From Haliotis asinina (Eukaryota; Mollusca; Gastropoda; Lepetellida; Haliotidae): 64,000 nt of DNA. The notes under the pieces were generated by a model. The model had not been told where the DNA came from. It worked only from the letters and a program-made list of their open reading frames with translations, and ran no database searches. Below, piece by piece: positions 3,028 to 40,455 of this stretch (its first letter is position 1; each line of letters opens with the position of its first letter). The stretch is from contig NC_090281.1 in the NCBI RefSeq assembly GCF_037392515.1, positions 49,700,645 through 49,764,644 on the forward strand, written 5' to 3'. The position numbers were made by a program, and so were the translations under genes.

Positions 3028-4016
3028 TCAGTTCAACTCCTCTTCAAAATCAGGTTCTTTCTTGATTGGAACAAGTGGAACTACTTTTAAAGACCCCACA
3101 ATTGCTTCATAGAATTTCTTCTGATAGTCTTAAAGTTTATCAGAGGGCAGGTTATCCTCATAACCATCAAGATTCTCTTTATTTTTTGCTGGCAGATCCT
3201 CTTGAAATTCACTTACAGAACTAGAAGACAAATCTGCACTATGCATACAAGGATTGTCCTCATCTTGGTGGTCCTCAAGGATGTCCTCATTAGATTCATT
3301 TTCCTCTTTGACAATAATATCTTCATCAAATGCTTCACCATCTTTACCATTATTTGCTTCTTCTGTCAATGTTTGCTGTTTTCTAGCTTTCAACAGATGC
3401 ATATGTTTGAAGAGTGGGACAGATTTGTACCTTGGTGGTTTCACAAACAAGGGACGTGGGACCTCCCCTCCTATCTTATCTCTGTGTACCTTCATATGAG
3501 CGTGGAGATTTCCAGCTGTTGCGCAGGCCTTAGCACATGTGACATTTGTGGGAACGTTCTCCTGTGTGAGTACGAATATGTGCGGTCATTGTGCATAAGT
3601 CAGCAAAACCTCGAGCACAGTATTCACAAATATAGGGTTTTTCTCCAGTATGAATACGCATGTGTCGTTTGAAAGTAGTAGAACTAATACAACCATGGCC
3701 GCACTGATCACACTGCTATTCCCGTTTGTCTCCATGAGTCTTCAAATGGTACCTGAGTTTGTGGAAGTGTTTGAAAGTTTTACCACACTCAGTGCAAACG
3801 AAGGGTATCTCCTCGCCAGCACATTCTAGCCATGATTGATCTACGGTCGGGATGATCCAAGGTCGCCCTCAGCGACCCTGTTGTTTTTAACTTATTGACT
3901 AATCGGTGAATTGTACTCTGAGCTGTTTTCATTTTTTTAGAAACTTCATACTGGGAGTAACCTTTGTCTAACATTTCCTTCACTTCCACTCGCTCTTCTT
4001 TAGACAGTCGAGGCAT
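3028..4016 (-). pseudogene. Broken copy of transposase-HTH/C2H2 zinc-finger gene (copy 1)
   Basis: This is a paralogue of the intact genes at 15896-16918 and 26348-27376. The start MPRLSKEERVEVKEML and the helix-turn-helix are intact. After TGS, about 17 bases of the RTGRPR-encoding region are missing and the frame shifts. Further in, the link between fingers 1 and 2 has a stop codon (E then TAG then QCDQ), and finger 4 has lost bases around its second cysteine. The downstream piece MKVHRDKIGGEVPRPLFVKP continues to a stop after SDKL. Beyond it, a readable remnant of the IKKEPDF tail reaches a TGA at 3028. Several independent lesions make a working protein unlikely. A splice acceptor about 20 bases before the ATG matches the other copies, so this was once a spliced host gene and not a processed copy. 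Confidence 0.85.
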
Positions 4017-12394: not shown

Positions 12395-12455
12395 AGTATT
12401 CAGGGTTAGAATAGGTACCTAGCAACCTGTGCTGGTCCTACTGCGTGGATTCAGG
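12395..12455 (+). repeat. 51-bp minisatellite, left part
   Basis: About one unit of the minisatellite that continues at 14771 (ttcagggttagaataggt, then cagcaacctgtgctggtcct). The array is split by the retroelement at 12456-14770. The bases tgcgtggattcagg occur on both sides of the insert. Confidence 0.85.
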
Positions 12456-13382: not shown

Positions 13383-14720
13383 TGACTGTGGGTGACTTTG
13401 TCTTCAACGGCCAACACTACCTACAGGTAGGAGGCACAGCTATGGGCACTAAACTAGCACCATCATATACCAATATATTCATGGGAGAATTAGAAACTAA
13501 ACTCCTCTGACTATATGCCAACCAACCACACATCTACATGCGGTTTATTGACGATATTTTCCTAATATGGACACTAGGCCAGTCCAGCCTAGAAGCCTTC
13601 ATAAAATACCTCAATGAAGGTCATCCCACCATAAAATTCACAGCTGAATTTTCAACCAACAAGGTAGCTTTTCTAGACACATGGGTAAGTCTAGAAAAGG
13701 AGAACAACAAGTTATGTTTCTCTCTATATTGCAAGCCAACCAACACACTCTTACCTGTTGTATACGTCATGTCACCCCAGACATGTCAAAACTAAGGGCC
13801 CATACAGTCAGTTCCTTAGACTCTAACACATCTGCTCCTCCACTGAGGAGTATGAAAAACAGTCTCAACCTTATAAACTTCTACCTCAAACGAAGATATC
13901 CCATGAGACTGATACAACAGAATAAACACAAGGCTGACGGCAAGGACAGGAAGACCCTCCTGACAAACCCTACATGACCATCTAAGACCAAACAAAAAGC
14001 TATGGTCTTTGTTTGCGATTTCAACCCAATGAACATGGAGTTCAATGTCATTATCCAGAAGCAATGGCATCTGCTATCCGGATCAGAAATATGCCAAAAA
14101 AGTGTTAAATACTCTCCACATTACTGCCTACAACAGGAACAAAACCCTGAAGGATTATCTAGTATGCACCTCACTAGAATACCCCAGAAATATGCTAAAA
14201 AGTGTTAAATACTCTCCACATTACTGCCTACAACAGGAACAAAACCCTGAAGGATTATCTAGTATGCACCTCACTAGAATACCCCAAGAACACGCTACAA
14301 GTCAGTGGCCGGGTAGTCACATTCCTTGACGACCCATGTAACAAACAAAACTGCAAAATCTGCATCATAATCAATCATTCTGACACTTTTTACAGTACAG
14401 TATCTGGTGTCCAATACCGTAAACGACAGTATAAATGCACCAACAAAAATGTGGTCTACCTACTCACCTGCAAAAAATGCAAAAAACAATATGTAGTGGA
14501 AACCAAAAGGTGTTTCAAAACGAGACTGAATGAACACTATGCTGACATCACACACAACAGAGACAAACCTGTTGCACTTCAACTCGGAAAAACATTGCAA
14601 ATCCGATCTCACTTACGAGATCATCGCACAACTCAGACAGGACCCTAAGCTTGTTAGCAAAAGAGGAGATCACTCAAACTTAGGTGGATATTTAGACTTC
14701 ACACGTTCACCCTGCAAGGC
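13383..14720 (+). pseudogene. Reverse transcriptase and GIY-YIG remnant of the Penelope-like element
   Basis: This is the 3' half of the element's single large gene. The order is [20 protein letters not shown], the catalytic FIDD region at about 13540-13560, 'HPTIKFTAEFSTNKVAFLDT' (13621-13680), and a long linker. The endonuclease-type region with its CKKC motif follows at about 14450-14560. The N-terminal part of the reverse transcriptase is absent. It is broken in several places and contains a 101-bp internal duplication. It is a dead copy. Confidence 0.8.
14086..14287 (+). repeat. 101-bp tandem duplication inside the retroelement
   Basis: The segment starting 'agaaatatgccaaaaaagtg' and running to 'cactagaataccc' is present twice, back to back, with almost no differences. 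The near identity indicates a recent slip or unequal exchange, younger than the insertion. Confidence 0.9.
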
Positions 14721-14770: not shown

Positions 14771-15020
14771 TGCGTGGATTCAGGGTTAGGATATGTCCCT
14801 AGCAATCTGTGCTGGTCCTACTGCGTGGATTCAGGGTTAGAATAGGTCCCCAGCAACCTGTGCTGGTCCTACTGCGTGGATTCAGGGTTAGGGTATGTCC
14901 ACAGGAACCTGTGCTAGTCCTACTGCGTGGATTCAGGGTTAGGATATGTCCACAGGAACCTGTGCTGGTCCTCCTGTGTGGATTCAGGGTTAGGATATGT
15001 CCACAGGAACCTGTGCTGTT
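14771..15020 (+). repeat. 51-bp minisatellite, right part
   Basis: About five units repeat with an exact 51-base period ('cagggttag' at 14781, 14832, 14883, 14934 and 14985). Each unit contains 'cagcaacctgtgctggtcct' or a variant. The family also forms the array at 21770-22430. The open frames it creates on both strands are repeat artefacts. Confidence 0.9.
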
Positions 15021-15895: not shown

Positions 15896-16918
15896 TCAGT
15901 TTCTTTCTTCATCAAAGTCAGGTTCTTTCTTAATATGGTCAACAGGAATAAGTTGTTCCCCATGTGAATATACTGCAATTGCTTGACAGAATCTTTTCTG
16001 AAAGTCCATGTCTTTAGGTTTATCAGAGGACAGATTATTCTCAACACCATCAGGATTTTCTTCAACTTTTGCTGGCAGATCCGCTTGAAATTCACTTACA
16101 GAACTGGAACTCACATCCGCACTGAGCATATGGGGATTGTCCTCATCTTGATGGTCCTCTAGGCCATCCTCATTAGATACATCCTCTTCTTTGGCAGGCT
16201 TAACTTCATCAAATACTTCACTATCATCAGCATTATCTGACTCTTCTTTCAGTACTTGTTGGTTTCTAGCTTTCAACAGTTCCATCTGTGGAAAGATAGG
16301 GATAGATTTGTACCTTGGGGGTTTCACAAATAAGGGACGTGGGACTTCCCCTCCATTTTTGTCCCTGTGTACCTTCATATGAGCGTGAAGATTGCCAGCT
16401 GTTGTACAGGCTTTGCCACAAAGGTGACATTTGTGAGGACGTTCTCCTGTGTGAGTACGAATATGTGTCTTCATTGTGCACAAGTCAGCAAAACCTCTAG
16501 CACAGTATTCACAAATATAGGGTTTTTCTCCAGTATGAATACGCATGTGTCGTTTGAAAGTAGTAGAACTAATAAAACTCCGACCGCACTGATCACACTG
16601 GTACTGATGTTTGTCTCCATGAGTCCTTAAATGGTACCTGAGATTGTGGAAGTCTTTGAAAGTTTTACCACACTCAGTGCAAACGAAGGGCCTCTCCTCA
16701 TCAGCACATTTGAACCATGTCTGATCTTCGGTCGGGATGATCCGAGGTCGCCCTGTGCGTGGGAGGTCGTCAGTTGACCCTGTTGTTTTTAACCTACTGG
16801 CTAATCGGTGAATTGTACTCTGAGCTGTTTTCATTTTTTTGGAAACTTCAGTCTGAGAGTAACCCTTTTCAAGCATTTTCTTCACTTCCTCTCTCTGTTC
16901 TTTGGATAGTCGAGGCAT
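15896..16918 (-). CDS. Transposase-HTH/C2H2 zinc-finger protein, copy 2 (340 aa)
   Basis: An intact open frame in one coding exon, starting at MPRLSKEQREEVKKML. Residues 1-48 form a Tc1-type paired-like helix-turn-helix (STIHRLASRLKTTGS), followed by RTGRPRIIPTED with the GRPR motif at 56-59. Four C2H2 fingers follow, with first cysteines near residues 80, 108, 136 and 164 and C-x2-C-x12-H-x3-H spacing. After a basic VPRPLFVKPPRYK stretch comes an acidic, serine-rich tail ending in IKKEPDFDEERN, whose IKKE fits the SUMO consensus. I infer a nuclear DNA-binding regulator. The DDE catalytic domain is absent, so it is not a transposase. A splice acceptor (tttgtttacag) lies about 24 bases before the ATG, implying a spliced 5' UTR. 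It is paralogous to 26348-27376 and the broken copy at 3028-4016. Confidence 0.88.
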   Translation of the reverse strand: MPRLSKEQREEVKKMLEKGYSQTEVSKKMKTAQSTIHRLASRLKTTGSTDDLPRTGRPRIIPTEDQTWFKCADEERPFVCTECGKTFKDFHNLRYHLRTHGDKHQYQCDQCGRSFISSTTFKRHMRIHTGEKPYICEYCARGFADLCTMKTHIRTHTGERPHKCHLCGKACTTAGNLHAHMKVHRDKNGGEVPRPLFVKPPRYKSIPIFPQMELLKARNQQVLKEESDNADDSEVFDEVKPAKEEDVSNEDGLEDHQDEDNPHMLSADVSSSSVSEFQADLPAKVEENPDGVENNLSSDKPKDMDFQKRFCQAIAVYSHGEQLIPVDHIKKEPDFDEERN

Positions 16919-17360
16919 TGCAAGTCTCTTTCAATATACCTGTAAACAAAAATAACTAAGGAATTACATTCTGAAGCATGCTAAATGAAATTCCAATGTT
17001 ACTTCTGTTAACACTACTTATCATAGACATGTTCAGAATGTAAAGAAGTGGAGTGTGTATAGACTCACTTCGCAGCGACTGATCCTTGATCTACCCCACC
17101 CTTCATTTCACACTGACAAACATAAAGAGGAGTTTATGGATTATGGATGTGAAACGGTCAAGATCACCATTACAAAAAGAACATTAGTAGAAGATCAGTG
17201 CGGGAATGTCTTAATACAGTTTTCAAATATACATGAACCTATAAAACTTTCAAAATTTATATTTTTACCCCCAAATTACATGCACGTGGCACTCAGGTTT
17301 GAATTGGAGAAAAATACTTGTAGAATGTTTGTTTACACTGTACAATTTATCTTTTTAACT
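16919..17360 (-). other. 5' UTR junction and intron flank of zinc-finger copy 2
   Basis: On the minus strand, a pyrimidine-rich tract and AG end just before the 24-base leader of the gene. The leader (GTATATTGAAAGAGACTTGC) matches that of copy 3 except for its first bases. The rest aligns with 4070-4340. Open frames here are not convincing. Confidence 0.55.
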
Positions 17361-18355
17361 ATTTAAACCAAATGTTATTCCAAGACTAAAACCAGCGTCG
17401 ATTCAGAAACGTATAACACATATGGGCTCACAGTGACAGGGGGCATGTAAAGCTAAAAACTGCCATCAAGGTATATTCCGTCACGGAAAGACTTCCGCCC
17501 GTATCCCCACTTAAATTACATTCTTGTCAAATATAGCCACCGGAATATATATCCGTCATCTTATAAAGAACGACCCTAACATGAAAGTTGAAATGTTGGG
17601 GTTTCGGGAGATAAGTCTTACCTTTGTAGCGTTTGTTGGTTGTTTGTGTCCTGGCCGATTTGTTCAAATACGTGGCCGTTTACAGGTCCCTAACTCTAAG
17701 CAGTGTTAATATCGGGATAGTAAAATGAATGAAGAAATGGTGCAAAGTATTAACGCTATAAAACATACGTGACTCAGTCGGTTCGTGCGGTCGATTCTGA
17801 AACGTCTGTGTTGTTTGAAAACCCCACTCTACTACCCAGAGTTCCGTGCAGACAGCCGAGAATGTTATGCTAAATCATTCAAGTGCTGCGACAGGCGTCG
17901 GGAAAACCCAGGAAGTTAACGACGCGCATACGGAGCCGGAAACCAGTTTGAGAACATGCACGCTCCCCCACGTGTTCAAGTCCAAATGCGATGACAACAT
18001 TACACGCCATATTAGTAATAACACATTGGATTACCCCCAGGCAGGACTGGTAACCATAAATTCTTTACCCTATGTGCTAGGTTCGTGCAATTAAAAAACC
18101 CGGATGATCGGGGCACCAGTCATTAATTTGCATATCACTGCATCACTGCACTTTTCTGTTTGTAAACAAGCTGTGTCAAATGGAAGCTATCCAGTGTGCC
18201 ATTAATGTTGTTCGTATTATTTTGCAGAATTGAAGTTAAGAGTACCCCCCAACTCCCCATTCCATGTAATATTTATAAATTGGTGTATACTAGAATTATT
18301 AACAAAACCTAAAACAACAATATGTAGTTGCTGTACTGCAGTACAATATCACTTG
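17361..18355. other. No coding gene; candidate 5' UTR exon donor
   Basis: No protein gene is recognised. On the minus strand, 'gctacaaag|gtaagactt' (junction 17622/17621) is a strong splice-donor match upstream of zinc-finger copy 2. It could end that gene's untranslated first exon. The stretch 17630-18000 is richer in CpG than its surroundings. This is inference; nothing else supports the exon. Confidence 0.3.
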
Positions 18356-18359
18356 TTAA

Positions 18360-20305
18360 AGGGGCACTGATGCGGAGCGAATAATGTTTCTCGCCAACGG
18401 TCGAATTACGAAACCAAACCGCAAATTGGTCAGCGCCCGCTCCTTCGACCGTGACGGACAAAGGAACTGGGCTCCTGTCCATATTAGCAGAATTTCTTCA
18501 CCTTAACAGTCAGGAGGCCTGATGCCCATCATATGCCATTTGTTCAAAAATATCCATGGTATTCCTTGTCTGATCGTAACCAAATATCCCAGCAGTGTAG
18601 TTCTTTTCGGATGCTTGGATGGTATAGTTACTGATCCAATTTGATCCTATTTCTGTGTTTTTAACCTCGATATTTAATCATGTTACATGAAAATATGATG
18701 TCTACAGGCACGTAGCAAGCCATTTGTTTCAGTACGGAAGATTGCAAAGCTTTATATATATAGGTAGTTTTGAGTGTTGGCTCAGCTGTGATAGCAAATA
18801 TCATACGTAAATTTTGGTAGCTATGGTAGCTACAATGGTTTATTATTTATGATAATAAAAACACACAGTTGATTTATTTGAATTCGTAAACAAAAAACGA
18901 TGACTTTGCCTTTGGTAGAGAAATCTGAATATTTTCTTACGTAAAAAAAAACCTTATTTCACCTATTTACCCAAGTACACAGCAAATGCCTGTGTGTATT
19001 CCTTATGTAACGAAATTCCGTTGGTATCCTCAGAACAGTTTCGGCCCATAAGTGTTTTCAGGCTGCATGCGACACAGAGATTACATCCTCCTTGCTGTAA
19101 CTCGCGTTTGATGGTGTAAACCTACACGTGTTATTTGTCATCATTCTCTGGATGGTCAGTTAATGAATTAATGTCTGGAGTAAATACTCAACATTACAAA
19201 TTAAGGTCTGTAATGGCAAATGTATTGTATGTTATGTAATATGTGCATGTAAGTGATGCAAGAGGGTTTATCAGCTGAGTTACAAAAACAAACATCGATC
19301 AAAGGATTAACCGATAACACACTGATTGATTAATTACTTTTATCTTCTAGCGGATTTGTCAAAAGGCAGTGTGTGTAGATGACTACACCCTGTCGTAAAG
19401 AGTGAGTGCAAAAACAACATCCTCCCTTCAAAGAATGAACCACCCTTGCGTTGATTAATTGATTGCTCATTATTGGTTAACTAAATTACTTAGAATAGTG
19501 GACATCATACAATTAGATGCCAGGTGTGCTATCTTGGGAGACCAATGAGAGGTTTATCTGGTTTTCACCAACGTAAGACGTGAAACGATGTGTTACTTTT
19601 TCGCAAATGAGACAGTTGTAAGACACGCGACACAGAGCAGGAATATGTACCAGCTGCAGATGAATGGAATACGATTTCTTTTACGTGGATATTGATGGAT
19701 ACATTCCTGAACAAGGTAGTAGCCTGACATTGTTGTTATACAATTAGTCTGCTTTACATTCATTATTTGCATTTTGTTTTAATTTATTTGTTGTAGCATT
19801 CAGCAGAATCTGTATGACAGAAAACACACACTAGATCGCGTATGTGTGTGAAATAGGATCCACATTGGCAATCTATACAATGTGTAAATGTTGCTGTTAT
19901 GTTAGAAATTTATTATGAGTATAAGCAGATCGTGTGTTCTTTTATTAATTTTCAGAATCATACAAATATGCCAATAAACCAATTAGGGTTATGAGACAAA
20001 ATATCGAGACGTACATTGGCTTCGTTACTTTTCCGTCCTAATAGTTTTTTTACCATTTCTACCATTGGCAGATGATTAACCTTCAAAGTGTTTCATTTGT
20101 TTTCATAATACATTTGTTATGAAGTAAAAATGACTTCACCTAAGTTGATCTGTCAATAATTAAACTATCAATTGCGCTTACGGAATGCGCAGCAGAGGTC
20201 ACGAACCAGTCACGAATTCTGGGATATCATCCGGGTACGCATGGGAGAAAAACAATAACAAAAGTTTACACCAGTCCACGGAAATTGCTCCGCATCAGTG
20301 CCCCT
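18360..20305. mobile_element. Non-autonomous DNA transposon with 19-bp TIRs and TTAA target duplication
   Basis: Perfect 19-base terminal inverted repeats, AGGGGCACTGATGCGGAGC at 18360-18378 and its complement at 20287-20305, are flanked on both sides by TTAA (18356-18359 and 20306-20309). The 1946-bp interior has no open frame of note, so it moves with enzymes made elsewhere. TTAA duplications are typical of piggyBac and Kolobok elements. The purine start of the TIR points to Kolobok, but I cannot settle it. It lies between zinc-finger copies 2 and 3 and looks structurally whole. Confidence 0.88.
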
Positions 20306-20446
20306 TTAAATTCGCAATGGAAATAGTATTTTGGGATATTTTCTCAATGAAAGATAATCATGTGTGACTCGTAGTTAGTAAAATCTGTATAAGTTATGGA
20401 ATTGATAGAGTGAAATCTATATAGAAACGTGGAACGTGTGCCACAT

Positions 20447-21710
20447 ATGTAGGTTAGGAATCACACCCTGAAAGTGGATGTCATGTTGTTATGAATAGAT
20501 ATTCTTTTCAAATTAACAACAAATATGTTTGATTCCATGTGTGCTCATTTGTTGTTGGATTCTAAAGGCAGGCCCAAACTTGACATGGAGCACAAATTAT
20601 TTTCTGGATATTGTCCCAGTTCTGTGGACAATCACCACCTCCGGAATGCAAATGGTGTATGCATTTGTAGCATGTTAAATGTGTGATTACACCATCTCAG
20701 TAAAGTACAAATACTACTATTTTAGTTAAGTCCCATCGAGGAATACTGGACTAGATCGGATAATAGTAATATAATCTGTACTCTGCTGTGACAGTGTAAA
20801 CCCAAATATAATATGTACACATCTGACCACTTTCTAAAAGAATTACATTGACTGAAAAATAATCCACAGCCATAGACTTGACAGATTCACTTTACTGCAC
20901 AATGAAAACAATGCACATACATCATATCAGCTGCAAAATATACACATCTTACACAACATGTACACAAAAAAAACAAAGTCTTGATTCACAAATAACAAGG
21001 AAGTCAGCATGGACATTAGAGCCAAATGCCCAGTATACTGAAACTCAATCTTCTCCATATACAGTGTGTCACCATCTCATGATAAACAACTTAACACTCA
21101 GGTGATTTGCATTTGCAAATTTTAAATCCCATCTTCATGATCAACAATTAAGTGAATACAAAACAAAACCAAAAAATTAAATTGAAAATTAAATAAATCA
21201 TGACACTTTAAGCATAAATATTTGGTCAAAAGAGTATCTGATCAATGACCATTATCAACAGTTGGGCTATTTCAACTAACCCATAGTAATGTCATTTGTA
21301 TACAGCTGGTTAACTTCGATTCCCTTCCAAGGTTTAACATTGATACTCCACTTGGTGAACTAACCATGAGCTGACCAACCCTTGTTTCATCTCCTTCATG
21401 CCAATAACCAGACAGGGAAACAAGTAACATCAGTTAAGGTGAGACAGCAGATCTGTCAGATACTCTCCATCTATTCACAAGATGACACTTCACAAGCATC
21501 ACCTCGATGGACACAGAACACACAATGTACACCCGTCTATGACCCTCCACTTACCCCTATAATTGGGACCCCCTCTCTGCTGGTACTACTTTGGGTACTG
21601 GCTTTTCAAATGATACATGTTGCAATATTGTTTCTGAGAAACAGTATACTGCGTCAAGAACAAAGTTTTTGTGATTGTCTGTATGCTTTAAACAGAAATA
21701 GGACTGACAT
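20447..21710. repeat. Segmental duplication block, third copy
   Basis: This block is collinear with 10300-11640. The closest match is at about 21065-21430, where only a few bases differ. It lacks the MITE present in the other copy. No coding frame is conserved. Confidence 0.8.
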
Positions 21711-21769
21711 CCACAATTAGTGCCACTCTGTCAAACATATAAGGTCCCAATATATCACAACACTGGTAC

Positions 21770-22430
21770 CGGGTATTCAGGGTTAGAATATGTCCCCAGC
21801 AACCTGTTACTGGTCCTACTGTAGGGATTCAGGGTAAGAATAGGTCTCCAGCAACCTGTGCTGGTCCTACTGTGTGGATTCAGGGTTAGAATAGGTCCCC
21901 AGAAACCTGTTACTGGTCCTACTGTAGGGATTCAGGGTTAGAGTAGGTCCCAAGCAACCTGTGAGGTCCTGCTGTAGGGATTCAGGGTAAGAAAGGTCCC
22001 CACCAACCTGGGCTGGTCCTACTGTGTGGATTCAGGGTTAGAATAGGTCCCCAGAAACCTCTGCTGGTCTTACTGTGGGGATTCAGGGTTAGAATAGGTC
22101 CCCAGCAACCTGTGCTGGTCCTACTGTTGGGATTCAGGGTAAGTGTATGTTCCCAGCAACCTGTGCTGGTCCTACTGTTGGGATTCAGGGATAGAACAGG
22201 TCACCAGAAACTTGTCCCGGTCCTACTGCCTGGATTCAGGGTCAGAGCTGGTCCCCAGGAAATTGAGCTGGTCCATCTGTGGAAGTTCAGGATTGAATAG
22301 GTCCTCAGCCACCTGTGCTTGTCCCACTGTTGGGATCCAGGATTAGAATATGTCCACAGCAACTTGTGCTTCCTTCTGTGAGGATTCAGGGACAGAATAG
22401 ATTCCCAGAAACCTGTGCTGTTCAGAAGGG
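21770..22430 (+). repeat. 51-bp minisatellite, second array
   Basis: About 13 units of the family seen at 12395 and 14771, with period about 51 bases and more sequence variation (cagggttag, cagggtaag, and cagggatag forms). Open frames in it are repeat artefacts. It holds the same place relative to its flanking block as the first array, so both were duplicated together. Confidence 0.9.
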
Positions 22431-23169
22431 ATGACCAAAAGAATCAGACGTTGCTGCTTCTTTGCACATAATTGTCCTAAAAAAATGTGTACAAATACCC
22501 ACAGTACCGTTCACAGTTGTGTGGTTCAGTCAATTGTTTACAGACTAGCGAGCTTGAATATTGAATATTGCTGAAACCATGGCATGACCTTATTTGACTG
22601 GGAAGTCTGGTGGACACGAGACACTATCACTTTTGAAAAGCATCAGTTACACATTAAACTGGCCTTCATGAAGTTAAGTCAACTTGTATTTGTTGTTCAC
22701 TCAATTTACAGACCTATGTGTGGTGATGATAAAGGTGGTGATACTACGTGACAGGATACATGAGAACTTTACATAGAGGGCAATAACCATCACACTAGAT
22801 TGTAATTGTACTGACAGGGAGAAACAATTCTACAATATATTCACAAAGTGCTATATATTACCTCTGTCAATAATCATAACAACATAGTATCCTTCATATC
22901 TAAGAAAAATCCAATCTCCAATATCAATGTAATGATCATAACATGTCAAGTCATGATTTGGCACACAGTACATAGCACACAGTACATGATACATGTCATA
23001 CAGGGGAACAGGGTGTCAGACATCATGGTTACTGATTAAAGATCACCCAGCACTGATGCCACATTTATTGGTAAGACTTCCTGAAAACCATGGTCCACTT
23101 CACATACCATGCTATTGATTGTGGTGGGGTAGACAAGTGGTTACAGCCAGGTGAGGGGCTTGAGGTACT
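22431..23169. other. No recognised gene
   Basis: No supported feature. From here to about 25390 the sequence has no counterpart beside copy 2, so it is an insertion here or a loss there. Confidence 0.4.
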
Positions 23170-23240
23170 CATTAGTGGCTTGAAGTGAGTTTAGTTGTAC
23201 ACCTCACTCTGCAATATTTCAGCTATATGGCAGTAGTGGC
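23170..23240 (+). repeat. SINE head fragment
   Basis: A short piece with 'gtgagtttagttgtacacct' and 'gcaatatttcagctatatgg', which is the start of the core-type SINE without its body. Confidence 0.6.
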
Positions 23241-23854
23241 TTGTAACAACAGGGGGCCAGAGGAACGATGCTCCTGGAAACACTCGAAGGCATCATTCTG
23301 TGAACCCGAGACCAATTGATTTACTGTATACAGTTAATTATCTTACCTCACACATTAATGCCAATTTCTGATTGGCTGAGCATTCTTATATTATTTTCAC
23401 ATACGTGCTTATAAGCAAGTAACATTTGCTGTTATTACCAGCTGGGAATGCTGAACTCTGGGAATTTATTTGGTACTTTGTGTTAGTAATTCTCTTTCTC
23501 AAATAATTGAGTCACATATTATGTACAGAAATTACCAATGTTTTGCAAACGTAAATCAATGGAAGGGTGATCACTCCAAATATGTTTTTGTTGTTGTCTT
23601 GTAGATTCTGTGTCACCTGAAAATCTAGTATTGGCTAAGTGCCAAATTCTGGTACTCCTTATCATTATTCGATACCCATGCTTGAAACAGTTCAAAATTA
23701 ACACTGAGATTTGAGGTGCTCAGTAAGATAAATACAATGTTCATTGGTCACTTGAGATGTACGCACTATTTTAGTTTATGTTGACTTTCGGGTTCAGGGA
23801 ACATACACAAACATGCATGGTACAACATCCTATGTCCCCCTCATGACCCGTGAA
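23241..23854. other. No recognised gene
   Basis: Unassigned AT-rich sequence. Confidence 0.4.
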
Positions 23855-24065
23855 CAGCTTATGTCACACTTCACAATATTTTAGCTATATAATGGTGATC
23901 TGTAAATAATCAAGTCTGGACCAGACAACCCAGTCATTGAGCTCATGAGCATATATCTAAACAACTGGGATACAATGACATGCAGCAAGTGAGTCGGTGA
24001 GTCTGACCACCAGATTATGTAAACTGCCTCTTTTGGACAAGCACAAATTGCAGGGGACCAGCCCT
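23855..24065 (+). repeat. SINE-like interspersed repeat, core type
   Basis: It contains 'ttttagctatataatggtga', 'gtctggaccagacaacccag', 'gagcatatatctaaacaact' and 'gagtctgaccaccagattat' in the family order. Confidence 0.75.
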
Positions 24066-25389
24066 GGATCTTTACTCTTCATATATGCATATAATCACAG
24101 ATCATCAGGTGGGATTAGAATACACTTTTGCATGCAGGCAAGTTTTAAAAAAAACTCTTTAAATCTTTAAAGCTAGTATAAATGCTAAGTATATTTATAA
24201 AAATAAGAACTTTCAACTCATAACACACACCACCCTTACCGAATCACATGTATTCTATTCAGTGATATGGACATCCCTGTCAAAACATCAGATGGCTATA
24301 CAAGTTCTTGAAAAGGCAAAAACTTTCGAAAATATACACAGTTCCTTAAACATTGTGAAAACAGATCAAAATCTCCTGTGGATGTTTCTTGACTCAATAT
24401 ATTATCAACAAATAAAGCCTTAAGGCATAAACTGTAAACATGAAACAAAATTTCTCATATACTATCATTCTCATCAAAATAGAAATCTAAGACACTTTCT
24501 TAATCAACAGTCTTTAAACTTCATGTACATTGGCTAGTTTGAACATACTCAGTTGTACAGAGGATGAACTAAGTCTAGCAGTGGTAGACACTAATCAGAC
24601 TTACAGGCAAAAAACACTTTGGTGTTATGACTGTAATCCTGTCATCTGGACTTAGTTCTACATGCACAACTTTGCTATGTTATGATAAAGAATCATAGTC
24701 ATAATTGTCTAAATGCAAGAATGTGCAATGATGCCCAGAGCCCACTTTGACAAAGTGATCTAAGCGCTAAGGTGACTGTAACTCCAATATTCCAATAAAG
24801 ACATAGTTGTAGCACTAAGATGACCTGGACACACATGATAATGTCTCATGTAATGACAGCACATCAATGTGAAACACTGACCATGTCATCAGTGGCTGGT
24901 TTGAATATTCCAGACAAGCTTATTAAGAGATGTTTGTGACACTGATGGAATACATTGGTCTGCTGCTCAAAACAACAAATAACAGACACACTTTCAGCGA
25001 TTAAATGTCCTTAATCCTTCAAAAAACTGTAATCCTTCAAAACACCATACATTTCACCAAAGTGGTAATTATCCGAGACATGCATCACTTTGAGCTCAGC
25101 TCCCTCTATAAGATGACATTAGGTCAATAACGTGGCATTAAAAGTCACCCATGCAACAAAAACAAACGAGATAATCCTCGGGCACACATACTCATACATT
25201 CTGATCTTGAATAATATCTATCATTAGTATCAATGTGTATCTGCAATAAATATGATAAATCTATCCAAAATACAACCAGTAATCACAACAAACACGACAA
25301 AGAGTAGCACAAATAAAATCAACCACCTCCAAATCTCTGATTATGGAAAAGCAATGAGGCGAATTGTCTTCATCCCTTTTTAAAATTGC
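24066..25389. other. No gene; one weak MITE trace
   Basis: A very AT-rich stretch with no coding signal. At about 24752-24820, 'agtgatctaagcgctaaggt' and an inverted 'gcactaagatga' resemble a worn relative of the element at 45136-45501. Confidence 0.4.
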
Positions 25390-26347
25390 ATGATCTATAT
25401 TTTTGACTGAATTAGCCAAACATGCTCACTGCTAACATTCTGGATAAAAGGTTTCCTAGCAAGGTTTAATACTTGATATTAAGCTCTGTTTTGTTATATC
25501 ATGAGAAAGAATACACAATTTTAAATTTTAGATCCATAACCCTCATAGAAGTCAGATCATTCCCTGATAGTAACTGTCTTTGCCTCAGTGAGTGAGTAGG
25601 GTTTTACATTGCTTTTCATAATGTTCCAGCATTATCATGTCAGGGAACACCACAAATGGGTTTCACACATTATACCTGTGTAGGAAATCAAGCCTAGGCC
25701 TTGGGAGTGACATTTTCTATCTGCAAACTTGATATCCCCATCATAGAAGGTCCTTAAAATCTTTGATCAGCGATTAAAGTGGTTGCCACACTTTCATGAT
25801 AAAATTCATATTTGACTAGATAGTTATGTAATAAACTTTGATTTTGATAGCTTTGTTTAGAAATGCCTTAAATTGCATTTCAGTCACACAAGGCTAAAAA
25901 ATTGGGGTATTCAAATTCAAAATGCCATATTCAAAATTATTGCACTTCCCTAGCCATGTGTAATATATCTGTGCAACACTGCTTGTACTTGTCAGGACTA
26001 ATGGCTGATCATAATACTAGCCCAAAGATACACCACTGTTAACAGGGACACCACTAGACACAGTACACTGACTCAGAATTGACCAGAGATTGTTTTATAC
26101 CCAAAAAGCCAAGTAGTGGGCAGGGCAACAACAAGTATCGCCTTTAATTATGAGTGGTATGGTCCACTAGGCTACCACTATGCTCTCTCGTCACGTTGAG
26201 AGGGTCTTTTCCACTAGGCTCAACTCAATGTTTTATTTCATCTTAAAGAAAATCACAAGCATTGAAATACAAGACTCTCAAGCTTACTGCAGTCATTCAG
26301 ACCTAAACAAGTATGTATGATCCATGCAATGTTTGGCACTCATTGTG
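25390..26347 (-). repeat. Duplicated 3' flank of zinc-finger copy 3
   Basis: It aligns with 15170-15895. On the minus strand an AATAAA signal (26232-26237) lies about 110 bases beyond the stop codon of the gene at 26348-27376, a plausible end for its transcript. Confidence 0.6.
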
Positions 26348-27376
26348 TCAGTTTCTTTCTTCGTCAAAGTCAGGTTCTTTTTTGATATGGTCAACAGGAA
26401 TAAGTTGTTGAAATCCCCCATCTGAAGATACTGCAATTGCTTGATAGAACCTCTTCTGAAAGTCACTGTCTTTAGGTTTATCAGAGGACAGATTATCCTC
26501 AAAACCGTCAGGATTTTCTTCAACTTTTGCTGGCAGATCCTCTTGAAATTCACTTACAGAACGGGAACTCACATCCGCACTGAGCATATGGGGATTGTCC
26601 TCATCTTGATGGTCCTCTAGGCCATCCTCATTAGATACATCCTCTTCTTTGGCAGGCTTAACTTCATCAAATACTTCACTATCATCAGCATTATCTGACT
26701 CTTCTTTCAGTACTTGTTGGTTTCTAGCTTTCAACAGTTCCATCTGTGGAAAGATTGGGATAGATTTGTACCTTGGAGGTTTCACAAATAAGGGACGTGG
26801 GACCTCCCCTCCTTTCTTGTCCCTGTGTACCTTCATATGTGCATGGAGATTGCCAGCTGTTGTACAGGCCTTGCCACAAAGGTGACATTTGTGAGGACGT
26901 TCTCCTGTGTGAGTACGAATATGTGTCTTCATTGTGCATAAGTCAGCAAAACCCCGAGCACAGTATTCACAAATATAGGGTTTCTCCCCAGTATGAGTAC
27001 GCATGTGTCGTTTGAAATTGGCAGAACTAATAAAACCCCGGCCGCACTGATCACATTGGTATTGACGTTCATCTCCATGAGTCTTTAAATGGTTCTTGAG
27101 ATTGTGGAAGTGTTTGAAAGTTTTACCACACTCAGTGCAAACAAAGGGTCTCTCCTCACCAGCACATTCTAACCAAGTCTGATCTTGAGTCGGGATGATC
27201 CGAGGTCGCCCTGTGCGTGGGAGGTCGTCAGTTGACCCTGTTGTTTTTAACCTACTGACTAATCGGTGGATTGTACTCCGAGATGTTTTCATTTTCTTAG
27301 AAACTTCATACTGGGAGTGACCTTTTTCTAGCATTACCCTCACTTCCTCTCGCTCTTCTTTAGACAGTCGAGGCAT
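26348..27376 (-). CDS. Transposase-HTH/C2H2 zinc-finger protein, copy 3 (342 aa)
   Basis: Intact single coding exon. Residues 1-48 form a Tc1-type helix-turn-helix (SRSTIHRLVSRLKTTGS), then RTGRPRIIPTQD with GRPR at 56-59. The fingers have cysteines/histidines at 80/83/96/100, 108/111/124/128, 136/139/152/156 and 164/167/180/184, joined by TGEKP and TGERP linkers after fingers 2 and 3. The tail is acidic (DHQDEDNP) and ends with IKKEPDFDEERN; IKKE at 331-334 fits the SUMO consensus. The likely role is a sequence-specific nuclear regulator. Compared with copy 2, changes fall at predicted base-contact positions of fingers 1 and 2, while the segment coding fingers 3-4 and the tail is almost identical. 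A splice acceptor (ctaattcacag) lies about 24 bases before the ATG. I do not know a named homologue. Confidence 0.9.
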   Translation of the reverse strand: MPRLSKEEREEVRVMLEKGHSQYEVSKKMKTSRSTIHRLVSRLKTTGSTDDLPRTGRPRIIPTQDQTWLECAGEERPFVCTECGKTFKHFHNLKNHLKTHGDERQYQCDQCGRGFISSANFKRHMRTHTGEKPYICEYCARGFADLCTMKTHIRTHTGERPHKCHLCGKACTTAGNLHAHMKVHRDKKGGEVPRPLFVKPPRYKSIPIFPQMELLKARNQQVLKEESDNADDSEVFDEVKPAKEEDVSNEDGLEDHQDEDNPHMLSADVSSRSVSEFQEDLPAKVEENPDGFEDNLSSDKPKDSDFQKRFYQAIAVSSDGGFQQLIPVDHIKKEPDFDEERN

Positions 27377-29394: not shown

Positions 29395-29895
29395 TCAGTT
29401 CACCAACTGCACATGTGTGGACACAAGGGGGCGTTCAGGTCAGTACCTGGTGACACTACCCCTTGCGGGCACCAGTCGTTCGCTGTTAGGCGCAAAGCGT
29501 TCGTGTCGACATTGATGGACACGTACGTTGTCTGCCATCGAGTCGTTGCAGGAGGAAACGCGACTCCGAATCGCCGAACCAAAAACGCGTGGCCACTTCC
29601 CTAGGTTCCACGCGGGAACCCAGTTGTACCATTGAAGACATCGTCCTCGGTATAGTCGTGTCAATTCAGGTCCAACTTTTGATCGATCTGCCCGAATTCC
29701 CACTTCTCTCAGATGATTCCTTAGTGTTTGGTATGAAATCCTCGAAGGTCAGGCACCTGTCCTGCAGTGTCCGTTTCTGTAGCAAATTGGTGACATAGGT
29801 TAAACACCCGGATGAATCAGTCATTTTTTGTCGGTCTTCCCGATTTCTGGAACGATCTTGGGTCGAAGTGACGCGGGCCCAACAACAACGATATG
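29395..29895 (-). mobile_element. Degenerate Tc1/mariner relic, antisense
   Basis: On the minus strand the pieces RVTSTQDR, 'LRNHLREVGIRADRSKVGPE', LQWYNWVPAWN and then SRFLLQRLDGRQR follow the order of a Tc1-type transposase, up to the DESRF-like region before the second catalytic aspartate. Pieces lie in different frames. No terminal repeats were found. It belongs to a different lineage from the relic at 785-1806, judging by its motifs. Confidence 0.7.
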
Positions 29896-38621: not shown

Positions 38622-40455
38622 TAAACTAGCGTCCAAAAGAAAAGCCACCACAATAAATCCTGTAAATTGTAAAATAATTGTCAGTCTGTTTGAAAATAGC
38701 TAAAAACACATCTCTCGAACAGAACATGTGTATTCCCAGTGAACATGAATTATCACGAATGAAACGAAATTGTGCACAAAATTACCCGTATATATAAGCT
38801 AACCAGGTTTATTCTCTGACATCATTTTAATGAATTGACATCCAGGAACATGCCCCGCTTAACAGGAGAGCAGAGGCAGAGAGCCATCGGTGTGTTACAG
38901 ATGGAATAGACACCAGAGCTGAGGCAGAGAGCAATCGGTGTGTTACAGATGAAAGAGACACCAGAGCAGAGGCAGAGAGCAATCGGTATGTTACAGAGGG
39001 AACATACACCAGAGCAGAGAGCAATCGGTAAGTCACAGATGGAACAGACACCAGAGCAGAGGCAGAGAGCAATCGGTATGTTACAGAGGGAACAGACACC
39101 AGAGCAGAGGCAGAGAGCAATCGGTATGTTACAGAGGGAACATACACCAGAGCAGAGAGCAATCGGTAAGTCACAGATGGAACAGACACCAGAGCAGAGG
39201 CAGAGAGCAACCGGTATGTTACAGAGGGAACAGACACCAGAGCAGAGGCAGAGAGCAATCGGTATGTTACAGAGGGAACATACACCAGAGCAGAGAGCAA
39301 TCGGTAAGTCACAGATGGAACAGACACCAGAGCAGAGGCAGAGAGCAATCGGTATGTTACAGAGGGAACAGACACCAGAGCAGAGGCAGAGAGCAATCGG
39401 TATGTTACAGATGGAACAGACACCAGAGCAGAGGCAGAGAGCAATCGGTATGTTACAGAGGGAACATACACCAGAGCAGAGAGCAATCGGTAAGTCACAG
39501 ATGGAACAGACACCAGAGCAGAGGCAGAGAGCAACCGGTATGTTACAGAGGGAACAGACACCAGAGCAGAGGCAGAGAGCAATTGGTATGTTACAGAGGG
39601 AACATACACCAGAGCATGAACACACGTAGGATGCTGCAAATCCATCATCGGAAGACTTGTCACACGTCTACGACAGACTGGCAGTGCTGAAGACAGGCCA
39701 AAGAGCGGTAGACCGAAGGTCACTACACCAAACAAGAACACCGGTATTTACGCTTGTCTCACATGAGGAACCAATACGTCACAGCTCCAACAACATTGGG
39801 CATCCAGTCAGCAGACAGAATGTGGCCTGACGACTCCCCATTCATGGTCTCCATGCCATTCGACCTCTCAAGGGCATGACGTTGACGTGCCAGCACCGAC
39901 GTGCGAGATTGAGATGAACCGGGACTGTGCAACACTGTAGCAGCGAAACTGGCGAAGAGTGAATTTTGGTGACGAAAGCAAGTTCCAGCTCTGCAAGATC
40001 TGTCCCCAATGGAGCACTTCTGGGAATATAACTGGAACGTCATTTTCGGAAACGCCAAAATCAGCCATTGATGAGGAACGCTTTGGCAGTTGCCATGCAA
40101 AAGGAATGGTGTCGGATCCCTAAAGACTCTCCTACTCAGTTCGACGTCGGGTTCGGGCCTGCAACACTGCTGGGAGTCGCCACACCCGGTATTGAACAAT
40201 CTGTGCTACCCAGAAGGTTGCAAAAATTCCCAGTCGCTTCTGCATTGGTGATCGAATACTGTATAATGCACCCCAGTGTCATTTATGTGATAACAGTTCA
40301 AGAGCTATGTCGTGTTTCTTCTTATTATCCATTAAATACTGTTGCTGAATGATGGCTTTTTACAATAAAACATTTAATGTTACCATATATTGTTTAAGTT
40401 TTGTTTTAGACCAGAACAAAGTATTTGGTGGCGTTTCTTTTTGACGTTAGTTTGT
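38622..40455 (+). mobile_element. Tc1-like transposon with expanded transposase start
   Basis: Terminal inverted repeats AAACTAGCGTCCAAAAGAAA (38623) and the complement of tttctttttgacgttagttt (40434-40453) match over about 28 bases with four differences; TA precedes the left end. A transposase begins at 38850 (MPRLTGEQRQRAIGVLQ) and resumes after the repeat array at about 39648 with IGRLVTRLRQTGSAEDRPKS then GRPKVTTPNK. Later comes VNFGDESKFQL (about 39958), around the second part of the DDE/D domain. Many interruptions make it dead. The roughly 1.83-kb length exceeds the usual size because of the internal minisatellite. Confidence 0.85.
38868..39622 (+). repeat. Coding-frame minisatellite (48/42-bp units) in the transposase start
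   Basis: About 16 units alternate between a 48-base form (TPEQRQRAIGMLQREQ) and a 42-base form (TPEQRAIGKSQMEQ). Both lengths are multiples of three, so the frame persists. The unit is clearly a copy of the element's own first codons (GEQRQRAIGVLQME). A higher-order pattern of 48-48-42 recurs. The long open frames on both strands here come from this repeat. Confidence 0.9.

Follow-up and report, generated by a model that had tools for sequence, protein, structure and literature searches.

We have analysed a 64,000-nucleotide stretch of chromosome C2 of Haliotis asinina (C2:49700645-49764644; hereafter the window), which carries genes joining the first helix-turn-helix (HTH) of a Tc1 transposase to four C2H2 zinc fingers. 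Two intact genes, C2a and C2b, and one broken copy, C2psi, are located in the window (Table 1), as a preliminary description of this DNA had reported. The C2a and C2b proteins show 90% identity and the same order of residues: an MPRL start, an HTH with STIHRL, TGS, GRPR, four C2H2 fingers, an acidic tail, IKKEP, and a DFDEERN end. The broken copy, present as three pieces in different frames, had been described as keeping the Tc1 N-terminus; it does keep MPRL, STIHRL, and TGS, but it has GRPW where the others have GRPR. A polypyrimidine tract and a CAG located 2 to 21 nucleotides (nt) before the ATG were observed in six of the seven family copies (C2a, C2b, C2c, C2psi, C11b, and C11c, not C11a). 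In C2a and C2b, an in-frame TGA separates this acceptor from the ATG, and MPRL is therefore the likely start, as in Tc1. Judging from these signals, a single exon seems to hold the coding part, with an intron upstream.

The family extends beyond the window. Our searches of the genome (1.143 Gb) score the best candidates only, so that the copy counts are lower bounds. Six intact in-frame open reading frames (ORFs) with HTH and fingers were found on two chromosomes: C2a, C2b, and C2c on C2, and C11a, C11b, and C11c on C11. The three C11 genes have an N-terminal extension, followed by the HTH, linker, fingers, and tail in the same order as on C2, with GRPK or RRPK as the linker. They are 35-37% identical to the C2 family over the HTH, linker, and finger 1, and the identity between the C2 and C11 proteins is 34-42% for the HTH, 57-65% for finger 4, and 14-21% for the tail. 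PF00096 was detected in all six proteins, each of which has four fingers. When C11c was used as a query (best 150 of 4342 candidates), no intact copy was listed beyond these six genes and a repeated block, and the next five candidates fetched showed an HTH match, no finger match, and no C2H2 finger by pattern.

The repeated block is a recurrence of the C2 array 3.336 Mb away on the same chromosome (C2:53.030-53.133 Mb). It shows a median mismatch of 0.3% with the window over 39 one-kb bins (the first 39 kb of the window). Between the two arrays, C2a differs by one base (N to K) and C2b and C2c by none, whereas 2 mismatches plus 11 gap positions separate the two versions of the broken copy. Pieces sampled from L011 to L050 (approximately 100 kb) on either side of about 39.6-61.2 kb of the window showed 95.7-99.7% blast identity in their main matches, and in a pair located further out (L051/L052) the match runs through a tandem repeat. 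The block may represent an unmerged haplotype or a recent duplication, and we counted it and the first array as one.

Table 1. Positions of the family genes, their parts, and the Tc1 relic used for comparison (window coordinates unless a chromosome is given)
Feature	Position	Strand	Basis
C2a, intact gene, 340 amino acids (aa)	15896..16918	-	ORF
C2a Tc1-type first HTH and GRPR linker, aa 1-66	16721..16918	-	collinear with Tc1 transposases from MPRL
C2a C2H2 fingers 1-4, aa 80-184, with C for the core F in finger 4	16367..16681	-	Pfam
C2a acidic tail, 154 aa, 37 D/E versus 18 K/R	15899..16360	-	
C2a IKKEP, psi-K-x-E-P motif	15920..15934	-	
C2a inferred 3' splice acceptor (polypyrimidine tract, CAG 21 nt 5' of ATG) and in-frame TGA	16919..16955	-	sequence
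C2b, intact gene, 342 aa	26348..27376	-	ORF
C2b Tc1-type first HTH and GRPR linker, aa 1-66	27179..27376	-	Pfam, genome search, alignment
C2b four C2H2 fingers	26825..27139	-	
C2b IKKEP motif	26372..26386	-	
C2psi, broken copy, frame changes and internal stops	about 3031..4016	-	tblastn pieces
C2c, third intact C2 gene, 358 aa	C2:49697078-49698154, 2.5 kb left of window		
C11a, C11b, C11c, intact genes (348, 460, 360 aa)	C11, near 18.925 and 18.990-18.995 Mb		
Tc1 relic used for comparison, split by 48-bp tandem array	38850..39991	+	alignment

The N-terminus of the family is homologous to Tc1 transposases, as the preliminary description had proposed. When the first 77 residues of C2a were used as a query and the best 150 of 6062 candidate places in the genome were scored, 8 of the 150 were family copies, including those of the repeated block, and the other 142 showed 36-51% identity (E 1.2e-10 to 1.4e-8), nearly all matching from residue 1. 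We fetched 19 Tc1-like loci, 14 from these 142 and 5 from the second search with C11c. All 14 have at least one further Tc1 motif, and by pattern at least one downstream Tc1 motif was present in 17 of the 19 (none in L039 and L043), while none of the 19 showed a C2H2 finger by pattern. One of them (L031) is a complete transposase with the Pfam domains DDE_3 and HTH_Tnp_Tc3_2. In the alignment, the family and the Tc1s have the MPRL start, the HTH, and GRPR in common and diverge where the second HTH would begin. The homology stops near residue 66, which marks the fusion point, and the fingers come next. Neither the second HTH nor the DDE catalytic domain of a Tc1 transposase was found in the family proteins by Pfam or alignment; their replacement by C2H2 fingers, an acidic tail, and a SUMO-type motif had been claimed from the first reading and holds. 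Considering the sequence matches, a chance resemblance of the N-terminus to Tc1 is regarded as excluded. In a viral collection, there was one weak match (46% over residues 3-41).

A Tc1 relic in the window had served for the first comparison. It had been placed at 38850-39730 with MPRL, IGRLVTRLRQTGS, and GRPK; the place and the motifs stand (MPRL at 38850, IGRLVTRLRQTGS and GRPK from about 39638), but the matches extend to 39991. The first helix of the relic (EQRQRAIGMLQREQTP) is repeated about 16 times, mostly in frame, as a 48-bp minisatellite at 38867-39616. Two long minus-strand ORFs at 38822-39741 were set aside, as their Pfam matches are unrelated and weak and they run antisense to this tandem array. 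A second Tc1 relic lies at 29491-29870 on the minus strand.

The zinc fingers carry derived marks that are common to both chromosomes. The core F of finger 4 is changed to C in all six family copies, whereas the same position in 127 distinct other fingers, taken from loci chosen by similarity and not a random sample, is F in 122, Y in 3, L in 1, and C in 1. The contact residues of finger 4 (TGNA) are identical in all six, whereas those of fingers 1-3 vary. With finger 4 as a query, the C11 genes scored 58-62 bits versus 48 for the next gene, and with the C2b fingers 136-139 versus 117 bits. In the finger 4 search for a donor zinc-finger gene without the HTH, the genes at three of the next-best places, L066 (C14), L068 (C12), and L069 (C1), are ordinary C2H2 genes, with no C-core finger seen in the frames read. 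Many clustered C2H2 zinc-finger frames were observed on C1 at about 56-60 and 80 Mb.

The tail is the third part of the architecture. The six tails contain 32-53 acidic (D/E) versus 17-23 basic (K/R) residues, and each has one psi-K-x-E-P motif (IKKEP in three, VKEEP in one, and IKQEP in two), a motif that occurs in 0.3-2.5% of shuffled tails. Because the C2 copies are close relatives, the six occurrences are closer to two or three independent observations. We take this motif to be like the SUMO synergy-control motif. It begins 15 or fewer residues from the end in five of the six proteins, C11b being the exception; the C11b frame (L010:2984-4426) goes 73 residues beyond IKQEP, and this part is partly hydrophobic and perhaps non-coding.

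The preliminary description had suggested comparing nonsynonymous and synonymous rates (dN/dS, omega) between the intact copies. By the Nei-Gojobori method with 500 codon bootstraps, whole-gene omega was well below 1: 0.222 (0.13-0.38) for C2a/C2b, 0.237 (0.16-0.32) for C2a/C2c, and 0.245 (0.17-0.33) for C2b/C2c. The C2 family genes are under purifying selection. In the C2 pairs, omega was 0.119-0.156 for the fingers and 0.258-0.409 for the tail. For the captured HTH itself, it was 0.305 (0.09-0.94) for C2a/C2b, 0.196 (0.08-0.41) for C2a/C2c, and 0.298 (0.14-0.63) for C2b/C2c. On C11, the whole-gene omega of C11b/C11c was 0.306 (0.20-0.43); the HTH omega was 0.166 for C11a/C11b (0.07-0.38, based on the 465 bootstraps out of 500 that gave a finite ratio) and 0.145, without an interval, for C11a/C11c, and C11b/C11c gave no value.

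With a transposase-homologous domain in frame with zinc fingers in intact ORFs, the pattern of a host-transposase fusion suggested at first is supported, and we consider, with a probability of about 0.72, that these genes are a domesticated host-transposase fusion gene family. In this interpretation, the frame of a Tc1 transposase would have been captured with its own start codon, its first HTH (PAI-type), and its GRPR linker, and would have become linked, most likely in a single event, to a C2H2 exon encoding four fingers, which took the place of the second HTH and the DDE nuclease. Since it has no catalytic domain, the product would be unable to transpose by itself. Most likely, it binds DNA in the nucleus in a sequence-specific manner through two modules, one being the HTH with the GRPR linker, which has a minor-groove role in Tc1 proteins, and the other being the fingers. 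With its acidic tail and the conserved SUMO-type acceptor there, to which SUMO attachment is predicted, the protein would probably repress or limit transcription. Later, the gene would have been duplicated into two clusters, in which the contacts of fingers 1-3 changed and finger 4 stayed. We read the family as a putative domesticated transcription regulator, probably SUMO-dependent.

Several results weigh against this interpretation or parts of it. HTH_38 is above the Pfam cut-off in just two of the six proteins (C2b and C11b), and HTH_SB, which was listed for C11a as the sole Tc1-specific model, falls far short of its cut-off. Because dS was saturated, the three whole-gene pairs tried between C2 and C11 gave no omega, nor did two of the three within C11. 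The presence of psi-K-x-E-P is not proof of SUMOylation. As for the unity of the family, the C2b fingers are 48-50% identical to C11, hardly above the 48% to the next gene, so that just the bit scores separate them. There is no C11 copy among the 150 best-scoring places of the C2a N-terminal query; for the C2 HTH, many Tc1s are therefore closer matches than the C11 HTHs. Also, the clade uniting all six HTHs is weak (support 62/80) in a tree of 66 columns with the six family rows and 18 Tc1s (all 19 fetched except L041, which was of insufficient length). The HTH by itself is not enough to decide between one and two captures.

These last points are also what speaks for the strongest of the alternatives, namely that related zinc-finger genes on C2 and on C11 each captured a Tc1 HTH independently. 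The 142 Tc1-like places that take up the list of the C2a query, with no C11 copy, and the weak six-HTH clade are as expected of it, but the junction, a W in the linker, the finger 4 signature, and the tail motif are common to C2 and C11, and the lead of the C11 genes over the next gene in the finger 4 query is likewise against it. We regard two captures as unlikely. A single fusion is favoured because the F-to-C change, the same finger 4 contacts, and psi-K-x-E-P are present in six of six; one old fusion is favoured and not proved.

A second alternative concerns the role of the fused protein, which could be a defence protein against its own source, with the HTH reading Tc1 ends and the SUMO-bearing zinc-finger body silencing Tc1 elements. 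On the one hand, the same genome has many Tc1-like places with open frames, the HTH is under constraint, and all six tails carry the SUMO-type motif. On the other hand, the HTH is just 36-51% identical to the listed Tc1-like places, and the HTHs of C2 and C11 themselves differ (34-42% identity). We hold this role to be doubtful. A wider form, in which the family would still read Tc1 ends and, by means of its two DNA-reading modules and SUMO tail, would connect dispersed Tc1 remnants to a network for silencing or gene control, is offered as a speculation of equally low likelihood.

In a further alternative, which is very improbable, the family itself would be mobile, the Tc1-HTH zinc-finger gene being carried by a transposon. 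There are multiple copies and the HTH is of transposon origin, but the copies seen (as lower bounds) are limited to the repeated block and two local clusters, those on C2 are on the same strand, and the DDE domain is missing. We rejected this alternative on the inverted repeats: none of the seven pairs (at least 12 nt) found around C2a and C2b, the two copies covered, flanks either copy.

The last alternative is that the HTH comes from the host, being of Pax type or of another kind, and not from Tc1, a question that the preliminary description had also raised. In Pfam, the general HTH model HTH_38 matched C2a at E 5e-5 (below the cut-off) and C2b at E 9e-8 (above it), and no Tc1-specific model was among the best 25 families listed for these two proteins. 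No complete paired domain (PAI and RED) was encountered in the family, PAX being listed just in C11a and C11c, weakly (E 0.008-0.009), over the first HTH. Run against solved structures, the HTH profile gave 66 distinct matches at E up to 10, among them the Sleeping Beauty PAI at E 6e-4, Prd at 0.005, SETMAR at 0.01, and PAX6 at 0.04, the Prd and PAX matches ranging from 0.005 to 0.14. Designed proteins and bacterial HTHs (e.g. resolvase) score higher than all of these, and we therefore treat this search as supportive only. A PAX match is expected of a Tc1 HTH, because PAX is also matched, at E 5e-6, by a complete Tc1 from the same genome. Despite the PAX and Prd matches, a host origin is hardly credible, considering that the Sleeping Beauty PAI beats Prd and PAX and that the Tc1 matches in the same genome (E 1.2e-10 to 1.4e-8) share the MPRL start and extend over the GRP linker.

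The capture of transposases is an accepted route to new transcription factors and has been described mainly in vertebrates. KRABINER of bats is reportedly a KRAB domain joined to a mariner transposase by splicing. It and other vertebrate host-transposase fusions combine the DNA-binding part of a transposase with a host transcription-factor module, as here; unlike KRABINER, the genes described here have the Tc1 first HTH only, in one exon with C2H2 fingers, and in a mollusc. The paired domain of Pax proteins is akin to Tc1 transposases. Both Pax and the present family place a Tc1-type PAI HTH in a transcription factor (here a predicted one), but Pax keeps both HTHs, often with a homeodomain, whereas here one HTH is followed by GRPR and zinc fingers.

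Two further systems are described in the main text of PMC12062965, which reports a screen of about 10 million proteins. The F-box A2 family of Caenorhabditis, the Tc1/mariner HTH family described there, is similar in that an N-terminal Tc1/mariner HTH was captured by a multicopy family that then expanded; its HTH is Mos1-like and its partner is F-box/FTH, whereas the partner here is zinc fingers (PMC12062965). The vertebrate BTB/POZ-integrase zinc-binding proteins likewise have an N-terminal mobile-element domain and a C-terminal zinc-finger array, but the former is an integrase zinc-binding domain with BTB and not a Tc1 HTH (PMC12062965). C2H2 is absent from that main text, and its supplementary table might hold the present architecture. 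In the accessible text of PMC10027918, on 788 transposon-derived factors across animals, C2H2 is absent and Tc1/mariner occurs only in the reference list. Thus, the host-transposase fusion is of a known kind, and the combination of a Tc1 HTH with C2H2 fingers was not found reported in the open-access literature, in agreement with the first statement that no named example has this exact order.

The family provides an example from an invertebrate: the donor superfamily is clear and occurs in the same genome, the fusion point is sharp, there are two diverged clusters, and constraint was measured on the captured Tc1 part itself. It becomes directly testable whether the original DNA targets of a transposase HTH are retained after its capture.

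Other features were observed in the region. A 51-bp minisatellite family lies near the gene copies (14771-15018, 21771-22420, and 12398-12455), and an ORF at 14202-14648 on the plus strand presumably resembles the GIY-YIG part of a Penelope-like element. Elsewhere on C2, PF14830 (haemocyanin beta-sandwich), which we take to be molluscan, has 16 matches in two runs of eight, with none in 14 control genomes. One unit compared with solved structures matched 14 at E up to 1e-50, all of them haemocyanins, with 3j32 first and KLH1 included. The two runs of eight units on the same chromosome support the mollusc host assumed in the preliminary description.

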